DNA of 35,536 bases from an uncultured Roseburia sp. (GTDB lineage Bacteria; Bacillota; Clostridia; Lachnospirales; Lachnospiraceae), in assembly GCA_945836255.1 (NCBI GenBank), contig CAMAKU010000006.1:1-35536 (forward strand), in the 5' to 3' direction. Position numbers and translations under genes: made by a program. Of this stretch, positions 5,528 through 10,966 are shown one piece after another (the first letter of the stretch is position 1; each line of letters starts with the position of its first letter). Under the pieces are notes generated by a model, which had not been told where the DNA came from, did not search any database, and saw nothing but the letters and a program-made list of their open reading frames with translations.

Positions 5528-5734
5528 TCAACCCTGTGATGCTAAGAAATTATTGATCTCATCAACTAACATATCCGGATCAATTCCGTGAACCATAGCA
5601 GCCTGCTCGATGGTCTCCATCTGTGATGAAGGGCATCCCAGACAATGCATGCCGATATTTAATAAAATTGGTGCGACGTTCTCATCGATCTGTAATAACT
5701 CACCAATCATTGTTGACTTATTCACTGTAGCCAT
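5528..5734 (-). CDS. DUF1858 domain-containing protein (small CxxC-type redox-disulfide domain)
   Basis: 68 aa MATVNKSTMIGELLQIDENVAPILLNIGMHCLGCPSSQMETIEQAA; typical DUF1858 pattern with HCLGC. Confidence 0.88.
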   Translation of the reverse strand: MATVNKSTMIGELLQIDENVAPILLNIGMHCLGCPSSQMETIEQAAMVHGIDPDMLVDEINNFLASQG

Positions 5735-6175: not shown

Positions 6176-6922
6176 TTATAATTCTGCTAATGTACTTAGC
6201 GCATCCTTGGCAAGAATAATGGTGTAATGCTCCTTAAAGTAGGCATCCTGTCCATAGGAGAAATCCCCCTGAGATCCATATTCGGTGAGAATATTGCAGG
6301 TCTTGTTAAATTCTTCCGGTGTATGGTCACTCTTGCTGACAACCAGATAGAAGATATCGGTGGAAGGATTCTTATACAAGGTGTTCTGTCCGTGGTAATA
6401 ACCGCGAAGCACATGAGACAGACGGATCAGATCATCCAGTGACTGGAAGACGAATAACTTCGTGATATCTACCGGTACGGCTGGGTCTGCCACATCGGGA
6501 ACCGATGCGTCTGCTGCCTTGCCAATCTGGGCAGCCGCCTGCTGAGCCTTGCTGAATAATTCGATGATGTCATCAGCGGCAGAAGCGGCATGCATGACGT
6601 CGTCTTCGAATTCCGCATCGTCATCATCTTCCATATCCTCTGAGAACCGGGAAAATCTGGTATCCAGTTCTTCGGGATATTCTACTTTGGTTACTATCAA
6701 TAAAATGGAGTCGGCGGTCAGAGGAACTGCTTCGATCATCAGTGGAATATCCTCTGCGTCGAAACCGAACTCATAAGATGCCTGCTCCATCATCTCGCGA
6801 AACAAGAGCTTGGCTTTCTCGGTGCCATATGCTAATTCACTTAATTTTAGGTGTCTACTATCTAAATCTTCTCTGGTAAGGGTGCAGCGAATCTGGTTAT
6901 CGTTTACTTTTTCAATTTTCAT
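6176..6922 (-). CDS. mecA: MecA-family adaptor protein
   Basis: 248 aa MKIEKVNDNQIRCTLTREDLDSRHLKLSELAYGTEKAKLLFREMMEQASYEFGF, acidic central linker, C-terminal FLVV/Y-rich domain typical of MecA. Confidence 0.93.
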   Translation of the reverse strand: MKIEKVNDNQIRCTLTREDLDSRHLKLSELAYGTEKAKLLFREMMEQASYEFGFDAEDIPLMIEAVPLTADSILLIVTKVEYPEELDTRFSRFSEDMEDDDDAEFEDDVMHAASAADDIIELFSKAQQAAAQIGKAADASVPDVADPAVPVDITKLFVFQSLDDLIRLSHVLRGYYHGQNTLYKNPSTDIFYLVVSKSDHTPEEFNKTCNILTEYGSQGDFSYGQDAYFKEHYTIILAKDALSTLAEL

Positions 6923-6998: not shown

Positions 6999-7132
6999 GA
7001 AACCAAAGTATTAAAATTGTCTAAAAATGTTAAAAAACTATTAAATAAGGGAGATTATGTTGAATTTCAAAAAGGAATTTGCTATAAAATATGCAAGAGA
7101 TGCTTTTTTCGTTCTGGAAAGGAGCATATATC

Positions 7133-8455
7133 ATGTCATATGATCGGTCTGATAAGTACCAGGTCATCCGTACCATTTACGAATCAGCAGCTACGCGTGT
7201 AGTGCTTATCAGAGCAAAACAATCCGATGAACTGCGGATTATGAAGATCATCCATAAGGATGCGGCAGCATCGGAACCTTTTTTATTTGAAGCAAGTCTG
7301 TTACGGGAGTTAGATCATCCCGGAATTCCCCGGTTATACGAGACCATAGAAGATGAGGATTATTTTTATCTGATCGAGGAGTATGTTTGGGGAGATTCTT
7401 TAGACGAGTATTTGCTTTATCACCAACACATTTCCCAGGATACTTTTCTACAAATTGCATTGCAGTTATGTGGGATAGTAACATATCTACATTCGCATGA
7501 TCCAGAACCGATTTTATATCTGGATATGAAACCTAGTCATATTATAGTATGCGAAAATCAGATGAAATTAATCGACTATGGAATTGCGAAGTTTCTTACC
7601 AGTTCGGGAAATAATTTCCAAAAATATGGAACAAAAAAATATGCGGCGCCGGAACAGTTGCAGGGCGAAAGCCTGGATGAGCGTGCCGATGTCTACGGGG
7701 TTGGAAGAATGCTGTGGCTGATGCTTTGGTATTTACAGCCCAGAGATGTGATTCGGTTTTGGCCGGTTGTCCGAAAGGCGATACGGAAAAATCGCGACAG
7801 GCGGACCGGCAGTATCCGGTTGTTGACACAGCAGTTGCAGCAGACGAAGCGCCGTGCAGGAAAACAAAAAAAGAACAAAAAACATCTCTTACAAAAAATT
7901 GCCGTGATAGGAAGTGAAACGGGCGTTGGCTGTACCCATGTGGCGATTGCGCTTGTCTGCTATTTGAACCAGGCGGGGTTTTGCGCATATTACAGAAATG
8001 AGACAGGGCAACCGGTACTGGAGCGCATGGTGCAACACGACATGGCATGTATACATGAGGATGGAATTATATATCACGAATCATTTCAGGGATACATGAC
8101 ATATGGTCCCGCAGTGGCAGAAGGCGAACCTCCGAAAGGTATACAGATCGTGGATTGTGGCTGCGGCAGATCGGACGATGCAGATGCTGCTATCTATGTC
8201 TGCAGCGGAAGTGTCTGGCAGCAAGTTTCGGGTGTTCCGGCGTGGGTATCGGAAGAACATGCGATTATTGTGTGTAATCATTCTACCCGTTTTCAGGCTG
8301 GGAAATGTGCCAGGGAATGGAATCACCGGGTGTATTTTTTCCCATATCAGAACAATGCATTTCATGTTACGGCGGCAGTCAGAATACTTTTTTCAAACAT
8401 GGTGGAAAGGGAATTGATTTGTGAAAAGCAGAAGAAAAAAGTTACGATCGGTTAA
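7133..8455 (+). CDS. Ser/Thr protein kinase fused to a MinD/ParA-like P-loop domain
   Basis: Kinase motifs: RIMKII (VAIK Lys), FLFEASLLREL (alpha-C Glu), LYLDMKPSHIIV (catalytic loop), IDYGIAK (DFG-like), KYAAPEQ (APE); C-terminal IAVIGSETGVGCTHVAIALVCYL and IQIVDCG. Start at 7133 supported by the ggaaaggag RBS. Confidence 0.82.
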   Translation: MSYDRSDKYQVIRTIYESAATRVVLIRAKQSDELRIMKIIHKDAAASEPFLFEASLLRELDHPGIPRLYETIEDEDYFYLIEEYVWGDSLDEYLLYHQHISQDTFLQIALQLCGIVTYLHSHDPEPILYLDMKPSHIIVCENQMKLIDYGIAKFLTSSGNNFQKYGTKKYAAPEQLQGESLDERADVYGVGRMLWLMLWYLQPRDVIRFWPVVRKAIRKNRDRRTGSIRLLTQQLQQTKRRAGKQKKNKKHLLQKIAVIGSETGVGCTHVAIALVCYLNQAGFCAYYRNETGQPVLERMVQHDMACIHEDGIIYHESFQGYMTYGPAVAEGEPPKGIQIVDCGCGRSDDADAAIYVCSGSVWQQVSGVPAWVSEEHAIIVCNHSTRFQAGKCAREWNHRVYFFPYQNNAFHVTAAVRILFSNMVERELICEKQKKKVTIG

Positions 8456-9032
8456 TCGTCTGGTCATCGGTGTTATCGGGGTCAGACATGGCGTGGGCTG
8501 CACCCATGTGGCTTGCAGCATTGCCAATTATCTGCGCTCCGTGGAGAAGCGGACCGTACTGTTGATTGAGATGGATGAGGTGAGTCAGCTCTTGCCAATA
8601 ATGATGGATGAGCCGGTAAGTTATGCTGGTCATGTCGTTTATTCATATCAGGGGGTATGGTATGCTCTCTCAGCCGGTTCGAGGGAAGCGGAAGAGTTAA
8701 TCCGGCAACGGGAACCGGGGGCCATTGTGATAGATTTTGGTGTGTATCGCAATGAGAATGCACTGGTTTTGGACCAATGCAAAAAAAAGATCGTACTGGG
8801 AAGTCTGATGCCATGGTGCCGGGACGCATACGATTCGTTCATGGAGGAAATCAACAAGAATAAAAAAGACATGACGCAAATGGAATACTATAGTTTTATG
8901 CTGCAAAAGCAACAACAGGACGAATTTGTTAGGCGCTACCCCGTCTTGATGCGGGAACTTCCGGTGCTGAGCAACCCTTTTGCCATGGAGAAACGAGATT
9001 TTGCATGTTTGCAACGAATCATTTATCAGTAG
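8421..9032 (+). CDS. Stand-alone MinD/ParA-like P-loop protein with variant Walker A
   Basis: GTG start, 35-nt overlap with the kinase gene; VIGVIGVRHGVGCTHVACSIANYLRSVEKRTVLLIEMDE and AIVIDFGVYRNE resemble the ParA/MinD fold; same GVGCTHVA as the upstream fusion. Confidence 0.7.
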   Translation: MKSRRKKLRSVNRLVIGVIGVRHGVGCTHVACSIANYLRSVEKRTVLLIEMDEVSQLLPIMMDEPVSYAGHVVYSYQGVWYALSAGSREAEELIRQREPGAIVIDFGVYRNENALVLDQCKKKIVLGSLMPWCRDAYDSFMEEINKNKKDMTQMEYYSFMLQKQQQDEFVRRYPVLMRELPVLSNPFAMEKRDFACLQRIIYQ

Positions 9033-9112: not shown

Positions 9113-9148
9113 TTAGGGAGATTCCGTGTGGAGTCTCCCTAATTGTTT
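9113..9148 (+). terminator. Putative rho-independent terminator
   Basis: TTAGGGAGA ttccgtgtggag TCTCCCTAA followed by TTGTTT. Confidence 0.65.
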
Positions 9149-9226: not shown

Positions 9227-10966
9227 ATGGAGAGAAAGAACGGAAGGAATCGGTTTTTGGACAGAAGAGGACAGATTCCGATATATCAATATGCAATAGC
9301 AATCGCGGTACTGGTAGTGATTATCATTGGCATGATTTTTGTGATTCGCAGATATACACCTACCAAGGAACACATGAGCCTGGAGGATTTCTATGTTTTG
9401 ACTGTTGAGAATGAGGCGGCAGTCATTGTCAACGGAGAATACAAAGAGGTGACAACGGAGGATGAGGCGATTCATGCCGTGGCCATTGACGGCAATGTCT
9501 ATCTGGAGATCGGGTTCCTCAAAGATGTTCTGGATGACGGCTATGTATATGATGCCACAGAAGGAATCCTGCGGTATGTGACCGATAAGGATGTGGTATC
9601 AGCATCCCTGAACAGTGATGCTTACACCGTGGGCAAGACAAGAGAGTCCTTGGGTAAGGACGTTGTGATAGCGCAAAATGGCAATTACTTTGTTGCGCTG
9701 GATTTTATCACCATGTATACAGACCTGTCTTATAGCGTTGCGGAAGCGCCGAACCGGGTGATGATTGAGACGGCCGGTTACACCAAGAAAGTGGCGACTC
9801 TGAAAAAAGATGCCGCATTGCGACGGTTTGGTGGTGTTAAGAGCAAGATTTTAAAAGATGCGCAAAAGGGCGATGAGTTGATCGTGCTGGAGGACTATGG
9901 AAAATGGAGTCATGTGCTGACGGAGGATGGCGTTCTGGCATGTGTGCAGAATCGACGATTATCCAAGATTACGGAGCAGACGGTGGAGGCAACGCTTCCG
10001 GAGCGTACGTACAACCATCTGACCGTGAATGGCGACATTATCCTGGGCTGGCATCAGGTCACATCGGCCGCCGGCAACAGCAAGGTGTCTGAGGCGGTGG
10101 CATCTACGGGAATCACCGTTGTTTCGCCCACCTGGTTCTATCTGGATGATAATCAGGGCGGCATCGCCAGTCTTGCCAGCAGCGACTATGTTTCCTACTG
10201 CCATGAGAACAATATTCAGGTATGGGGATTAGTAAGCAATCTGGAGAATAAAAATGTGGATACCACCACAGTGCTCAATACCACATCTGCCAGAGACAAT
10301 CTGGTGAACAATCTGATTACCCAGGCCATCACATATAATCTGGACGGTATTAATGTGGATATGGAGGCACTGAGCGTTGCGGCGAAAGACGGCTATATCG
10401 AATTTATCAGAGAACTGTCAATCAAGTGCGAAAAGAATGATATTATTCTCTCTGTGGACAATTATGTGCCGACGGATTCCACGGCGTTTTACAATCGCAG
10501 CGTGCAGGCTGACTATGCGGACTATGTCATCATCATGGCATACGACGAGCATTATGCAGGGGATGATGAAGCGGGCTCGGTAGCGTCCATCGGTTTTGTG
10601 GAAGAGGGCGTCAAGAATACCTTGGCAGAAGTTCCGGCAGAGCAGATCATTTTGGGCATGCCATTTTACGCCCGTGTCTGGAAGTCCTCTGCGGATGGGC
10701 TGAGCAGCAGCGCATACGGTATGGATGAACTGGAGGCGTTTCTGGAACGGAATGGCGCAGTGAAGACCTGGTCAGAGAAAGACGGACAGTATTATGCGGA
10801 ATTCTCGGACGGCACAGCGACCTATATGGCATGGGTGGAAGATGTGACATCACTGGGCAAGAAACTGGATGTGATGAAAGCCAATCATCTGGCAGGCGCC
10901 GCTTTTTGGAAACTTGGTTTCGAGACAGACGCCGTGTGGGATACGGTGAGCAATTATTTCAAATAA
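9227..10966 (+). CDS. Membrane-anchored GH18-family glycoside hydrolase with SH3-like region (YaaH/SleL-like peptidoglycan or spore hydrolase candidate)
   Basis: 579 aa; N-terminal TM; SH3-like ALRRFGGVKSKILKDAQKGDELIVLEDYGKWSHV; GH18 active-site LDGINVDMEAL; YVIIMAYDEHYAGDDEAGSVA and ILGMPFYARVW. Confidence 0.88.
   Translation: MERKNGRNRFLDRRGQIPIYQYAIAIAVLVVIIIGMIFVIRRYTPTKEHMSLEDFYVLTVENEAAVIVNGEYKEVTTEDEAIHAVAIDGNVYLEIGFLKDVLDDGYVYDATEGILRYVTDKDVVSASLNSDAYTVGKTRESLGKDVVIAQNGNYFVALDFITMYTDLSYSVAEAPNRVMIETAGYTKKVATLKKDAALRRFGGVKSKILKDAQKGDELIVLEDYGKWSHVLTEDGVLACVQNRRLSKITEQTVEATLPERTYNHLTVNGDIILGWHQVTSAAGNSKVSEAVASTGITVVSPTWFYLDDNQGGIASLASSDYVSYCHENNIQVWGLVSNLENKNVDTTTVLNTTSARDNLVNNLITQAITYNLDGINVDMEALSVAAKDGYIEFIRELSIKCEKNDIILSVDNYVPTDSTAFYNRSVQADYADYVIIMAYDEHYAGDDEAGSVASIGFVEEGVKNTLAEVPAEQIILGMPFYARVWKSSADGLSSSAYGMDELEAFLERNGAVKTWSEKDGQYYAEFSDGTATYMAWVEDVTSLGKKLDVMKANHLAGAAFWKLGFETDAVWDTVSNYFK

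Follow-up and report, generated by a model that had tools for sequence, protein, structure and literature searches.

A kinase/pseudo-MinD gene pair in Roseburia as a likely CpaE/TadZ counterpart retained after loss of a Tad-like pilus

The window, a 35,536-nt stretch from an uncultured Roseburia sp. (assembly GCA_945836255.1, contig CAMAKU010000006.1), contains a pair of overlapping genes on its forward strand. The first encodes a protein kinase domain fused to a pseudo-MinD domain, and the second encodes a stand-alone pseudo-MinD partner (Table 1). Both open reading frames are intact, and each has its own ribosome-binding site. The fusion gene likely starts at ATG 7133, given an AAAGGAG motif 8 nt upstream and the same start in its homologues from congeners at loci L038 and L039; the alternative start at 7091 is merely the first start codon past a stop codon. 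The preliminary description read the locus as a soluble kinase joined to a P-loop-like domain, free of transmembrane or PASTA regions and overlapped at its 3′ end by a second gene. This reading holds: both reading frames and their overlap were confirmed, the N-terminal part of the fusion matches Pfam PF00069 (E 7.7e-35), and neither protein has a transmembrane segment (maximum 19-residue hydropathy 1.48). On the reverse strand, positions 5528-5734 encode a 68-aa hybrid-cluster-protein-associated disulfide family protein (TIGR03980).

Table 1. Features of the gene pair and its neighbours in the window.
Feature	Position	Strand	Detail or basis
mecA, divergent neighbour outside the module, marks the conserved site	6176..6922	-	PF05389 E 2.6e-72; synteny
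Ribosome-binding site AAAGGAG of fusion gene	7118-7124	+	8 nt 5′ of ATG 7133
Kinase/pseudo-MinD fusion gene	7133..8455	+	440 aa; ORF call, Pfam, structure prediction
Hanks-type kinase domain of fusion	7169..7744	+	Pfam PF00069, invariant alignment columns, residue counts over 78 kinases
Predicted MinD/ParA-fold C-terminal domain of fusion	7883..8422	+	Family profile, alignment, structure prediction
Walker-A-like GSETGVGCTH of fusion	7910-7939	+	Cys at P-loop Lys position
Shine-Dalgarno-like GGAAAGGG of partner gene, within fusion gene	8404..8411	+	Direct sequence reading
Stand-alone pseudo-MinD partner gene	8421..9032	+	203 aa, GTG start; 35-nt overlap with fusion gene
Walker-A-like GVRHGVGCTH of partner	8478-8507	+	Cys at P-loop Lys position
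Terminator-like hairpin, ends two-gene unit before GH18	9113..9142	+	13 pairs (6 G-C)
GH18 protein, downstream neighbour outside the module	9227..10966	+	PF00704; in relatives also without the module

The kinase domain has a Hanks-type fold, and the best NCBIfam match of the fusion is to the PknB/Stk1-type PASTA kinases (E 3.4e-28). However, the fusion scores 99 bits against a family cut-off of 450, has neither a transmembrane segment nor PASTA repeats, and carries a pseudo-MinD domain. Its structure was predicted with a pLDDT of 89, and the Foldseek matches are protein kinases. All 75-78 family sequences covering these positions keep the kinase Lys, Glu, catalytic Asp, and DFG Asp, including the window protein (Lys38, Glu53, Asp131, and Asp148). 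In the catalytic loop, the metal-binding Asn is kept in 60 of 78 family kinases and is His in 18, among them the window kinase (His136), while Gln replaces the Lys of this loop in 20 of 78. Most family members retain the glycine-rich loop, which has been lost in the window lineage and is replaced in the window kinase by IYESAATRV. Judged by these residues, kinase activity is possible for the family and uncertain for the window protein. A separate, longer Pkinase ORF is also present in the window's genome.

Sequence searches with the partner alone returned weak matches only in Pfam, NCBIfam, and the PDB; those in NCBIfam (CpaE-type Ssd, E 0.0021; BcsQ, E 0.0026) and Pfam (BcsQ, E 0.0076) are sub-threshold. 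The profile of the family likewise gave weak ParA/FleN/Wzc matches, and the fold therefore had to come from structure prediction. The partner was predicted with a pLDDT of 91.8 and a pTM of 0.90, and Foldseek placed FlhG, ParA, FleN, and HypB as its nearest solved folds; the PDB matches listed did not include TadZ (3FKQ). The predicted structures assign the C-terminal domain of the fusion and the partner to the MinD/ParA fold with high confidence, which upholds the earlier claims that both are P-loop folds and that the partner is a paralogue of the fused domain.

The family shares its fold with the FleN/FlhG, MinD, and ParA ATPases (Foldseek E about 1e-6) and mostly keeps the Walker A Gly and Thr, the following His, the Walker B Asp, and the Gly after this Asp. 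Unlike those ATPases, it has lost the P-loop lysine: the residue is absent in 159 of 159 aligned family domains, with mostly Thr, Val, Ala, or Cys in its place. Since the replacement extends to all aligned domains, the MinD-like domains of the family are probably not ATPases. No C-terminal amphipathic membrane helix of the MinD/CpaE kind was seen.

The profile was built from 22 such domains and searched in 250 genomes of Lachnospiraceae, almost one for each genus. At a threshold of E 0.001, 94 of these contained the family, about 70 with strong matches, and members also occur elsewhere in the order and class, in further families. Neighbourhood analysis of homologs showed that the fusion-plus-partner arrangement is conserved, in line with the preliminary description: a partner lies directly downstream on the same strand at 63 of 78 kinase loci read and overlaps the fusion gene in 44 of these 63. 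A tree of 159 domains places the majority of fusion domains opposite the majority of partner domains, with exceptions and with weak deep support; this separation suggests an old duplication behind the two. The pair is under purifying selection between congeners (dN/dS about 0.24-0.33, a rough figure given the high dS), and selection is purifying in both domains of the fusion. The pair is not a chance reading frame because homologous pairs occur in dozens of genera and selection is purifying. In the congener comparison, the pair evolves faster than mecA and GH18. Single-protein scans of genome contigs gave no match with the window partner and three close relatives with a Tad-linked member, and the family alignment offered no conserved stretch usable for contig scanning.

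The order divergent mecA, pair, GH18, CwlD-type amidase, and Sua5 recurs across the family. The preliminary description considered that the two proteins might form a heterodimeric MinD/ParA ATPase switch that is regulated by the fused kinase and acts in the cell envelope alongside the flanking GH18 and amidase. Such a switch would fit the MinD/ParA folds, the conserved pairing, and this stable neighbourhood. However, nucleotide-driven switching is doubtful with the P-loop lysine missing family-wide, and the GH18 and amidase genes were rejected as functional evidence: the hairpin separates the partner from GH18, and mecA and GH18 are adjacent without the pair in many relatives. For these two reasons the link between pair and GH18 is positional. 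Vallitaleaceae-type loci, moreover, have the pair at the head of a Tad-like operon and contain no GH18, and an envelope ATPase switch is accordingly very improbable. At four loci where the kinase pair is missing (L145, L147, L149, and L150), an ORF of ~80 aa with the core LEGKxSTPxxI...EExxYMxDY fills the mecA-GH18 site; the one scanned had no Pfam match.

The complete Tad-like operon has the order kinase fusion, partner, SAF protein, a protein of ~200 aa, c28, CpaF, TadBC-like protein, and c31-c33. It is found in full at L028, L161, L164-L168, and L174, with c32/c33 unreached or unrecognised in L161. L175 has the same operon with c28 not recognised, and in Petrocella sp. FN5 (Vallitaleaceae, placed in Lachnospirales by NCBI) and its relatives at L225-L227 the order holds as far as the contigs reach. 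The operon is headed by the pair in families f4 and f22 and in Petrocella. At L028, a locus of f4, mecA and GH18 flank the entire operon, which occupies the site of the orphan pair in other genomes such as the window's. From this gene order, the ancestral context of the pair looks like a Tad-like pilus operon.

The SAF protein matches NCBIfam CpaB (6.4e-7, below the curated cut-off) and also Pfam SAF, while the operon ATPase matches NCBIfam TadA (1.8e-07 in L161, below the curated cut-off) and Pfam T2SSE (7.5e-06 in L028 and 3.3e-17 in L078). The c28 protein is MinD-like, and the platform candidate of the operon, the TadBC-like protein, is a membrane protein of ~600 aa with 5-7 hydrophobic segments. 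The pilin-like small proteins have an N-terminal hydrophobic segment. Neither platform nor pilin-like proteins are recognised by Pfam or NCBIfam, and their roles are assigned by gene order, topology, and mutual similarity. No prepilin peptidase was found in the relatives' operon.

Lachnospiraceae carry the operon as two separate halves. Half A consists of the pair, at times with SAF/CpaB, beside mecA, and half B consists of c28, CpaF, the TadBC-like gene, and the pilin-like genes, on a different contig from the pair in the loci read. Among motor-bearing genomes checked, SAF is in half A in 15 and in half B in 6, and no recognisable full-length copy was found at the opposite half where both were read; L192, half B of genome G209, has a weak SAF match (2e-04) besides its half-A copy. 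The specific CpaF motor occurs in 30 of the 250 genomes, and a family member is present in 29 of these 30 compared with 41 of the 220 without it (odds ratio 127; Fisher p 1.4e-17, which overstates the significance as the genomes are not independent and ancestry is uncorrected). Setting aside genomes whose only family member is isolated lowers the count to 28 of 30. Half B is thus almost never found without a family member.

The window's genome has half A only: no specific CpaF was found in it, at 83% completeness, which leaves this absence uncertain. Its pair is called an orphan because of this missing motor, and it is eroding in congeners. Within the genus, two genomes including the window's own (G000 and G002) keep both genes, two (G001 and G004) keep the fusion only, and one (G003) has a kinase without the P-loop domain. 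In the last of these (L141:7976-9235), the kinase gene stops after 271 aa, and a remnant of the lost P-loop domain, EKDYIYHGS, lies downstream. This erosion series, the missing CpaF, and the degenerate kinase motifs would all fit a decaying relic with no current function in the window's genome. Such a relic is nonetheless improbable, given two intact reading frames with good start sites, the retained catalytic Lys, Glu, Asp, and Asp, and dN/dS well below 1 in both domains.

Orphan pairs extend well beyond this genus. On the kinase tree, 34 of 62 Lachnospiraceae kinase rows have no motor, and 16 of these form a single clade with full support that consists of orphans throughout. Motor presence and absence require about 9 state changes, which implies that orphans have been kept through long stretches. 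The fusion also remains under purifying selection in congeners that have lost the partner (dN 0.17, dS 0.70). Furthermore, the window's genome retains a canonical Tad locus on another contig, C20, with a TadA-type ATPase, T2SSF, and a TadZ-like gene. These observations would fit a stand-alone signalling or positioning module, in which orphan pairs were recruited from the pilus to the envelope, cell division, or the canonical Tad pilus. However, the pair evolves faster than its neighbours, the glycine loop and catalytic Asn are missing from the window kinase, congeners lose the module stepwise, and no pilus-independent gene association was found, all of which make recruitment rather unlikely. 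The TadZ-like gene of C20 (L221:2528-3595; 355 aa) adjoins the canonical TadA-type ATPase and has no recognisable Walker A and no Pfam match.

CpaE/TadZ is among the known systems closest to the pair. It links a receiver domain with a MinD-like domain, which dimerises and is arranged around CpaF, the secretion ATPase, and Caulobacter CpaE dimers with receiver domains have been modelled around CpaF (PMC13170226). The family resembles CpaE/TadZ in its MinD/ParA fold with a deviant or degenerate Walker A, and in the N-terminal receiver-like domain of some members (L031 and L071-L073). CpaB and CpaF are its neighbours in a Tad-type operon in Vallitaleaceae-type families, whereas in Lachnospiraceae this set is split and in the window's own genome the pair is not encoded with them. 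Receiver-like members lie in Tad-like loci at L031 and L072, with marginal profile support for the receiver assignment. The window fusion differs from CpaE/TadZ in carrying a Hanks-type kinase at the position of the receiver domain, and its partner has no N-terminal domain. The family also comprises two tandem paralogues rather than one, and most Lachnospiraceae pairs sit apart from the pilus operon. CpaE/TadZ dimerises in an ATP-dependent manner and localises to the cell pole; in the family, ATP dependence is doubtful because the P-loop lysine is always lost.

Two single-chain proteins (L078:9635-12325 and L079:7714-10038) each combine an N-terminal domain and a coil with a tandem pair of P-loop domains, so that the two paralogues are naturally fused; the L078 copy adjoins SAF and CpaF. 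Other members lie in different surroundings. L033 (G049:C2:161001-181000) places a kinase/pseudo-MinD fusion in a T7SS-type locus with WXG100, EssC-like, DUF4176, and PP2C genes and a T2SSE ATPase. At L169, L171-L173, and L180, an FtsK/EssC-like ORF of ~1520 aa lies beside a receiver-type member and a Tad-like operon; the L169 ORF, the only one scanned, contains FHA. L071:1-13475, as well as L076 and L077, has a receiver-like and P-loop member in a conjugative element, which in L071 carries VirD4-type, TrbL, VirB4-type, and Tn916-type integrase genes. With members in T7SS loci, conjugative elements, and Tad-like loci, the family seems to serve several envelope-spanning machines.

According to the available portion of PMC11217815, T7SSc-j loci contain kinases, PPM phosphatases, TadZ-like receiver domains, and Tad neighbours. 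The gene set around L033 is similar, and the L169-type loci resemble the T7SS-Tad neighbours in that portion. In contrast, that portion describes no kinase/pseudo-MinD fusion that heads a Tad operon together with a partner, and no T7SS genes were recognised among the scanned window proteins by Pfam or NCBIfam. A literature search for a Tad-linked kinase/MinD fusion found no paper.

The pair is probably a kinase-type counterpart of CpaE/TadZ that was retained after loss of the pilus. The kinase would occupy the position of the receiver domain, with the second pseudo-MinD protein as its usual partner. The two pseudo-MinD domains may pair as a heterodimer, dock on the pilus motor or the membrane platform, and thereby carry the kinase to the motor, where it could gate assembly through phosphorylation of a machine component. 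In the window lineage, the machine would be gone and the pair left as an orphan, which may be slowly decaying or may act on a different target, for example the canonical Tad locus in its own genome. A more far-reaching version is possible, if still speculative: a distinct Lachnospirales Tad-like machine under Ser/Thr-kinase control, with fusion and partner serving as its CpaE and with orphans that, after the pilus had been lost repeatedly, took on a new job in dozens of gut genera as a free-standing kinase/pseudo-ATPase module.

If correct, a kinase-type CpaE/TadZ counterpart would explain an unannotated but conserved gene pair in about a quarter of the sampled genera of Lachnospiraceae, which are dominant gut commensals. 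It would define a Tad-like pilus with a Hanks-type kinase in place of the CpaE/TadZ receiver domain and make Tad switching in Gram-positive bacteria directly testable. The split operon and its orphan pairs would provide a natural experiment on a pilus-positioning protein without its pilus.
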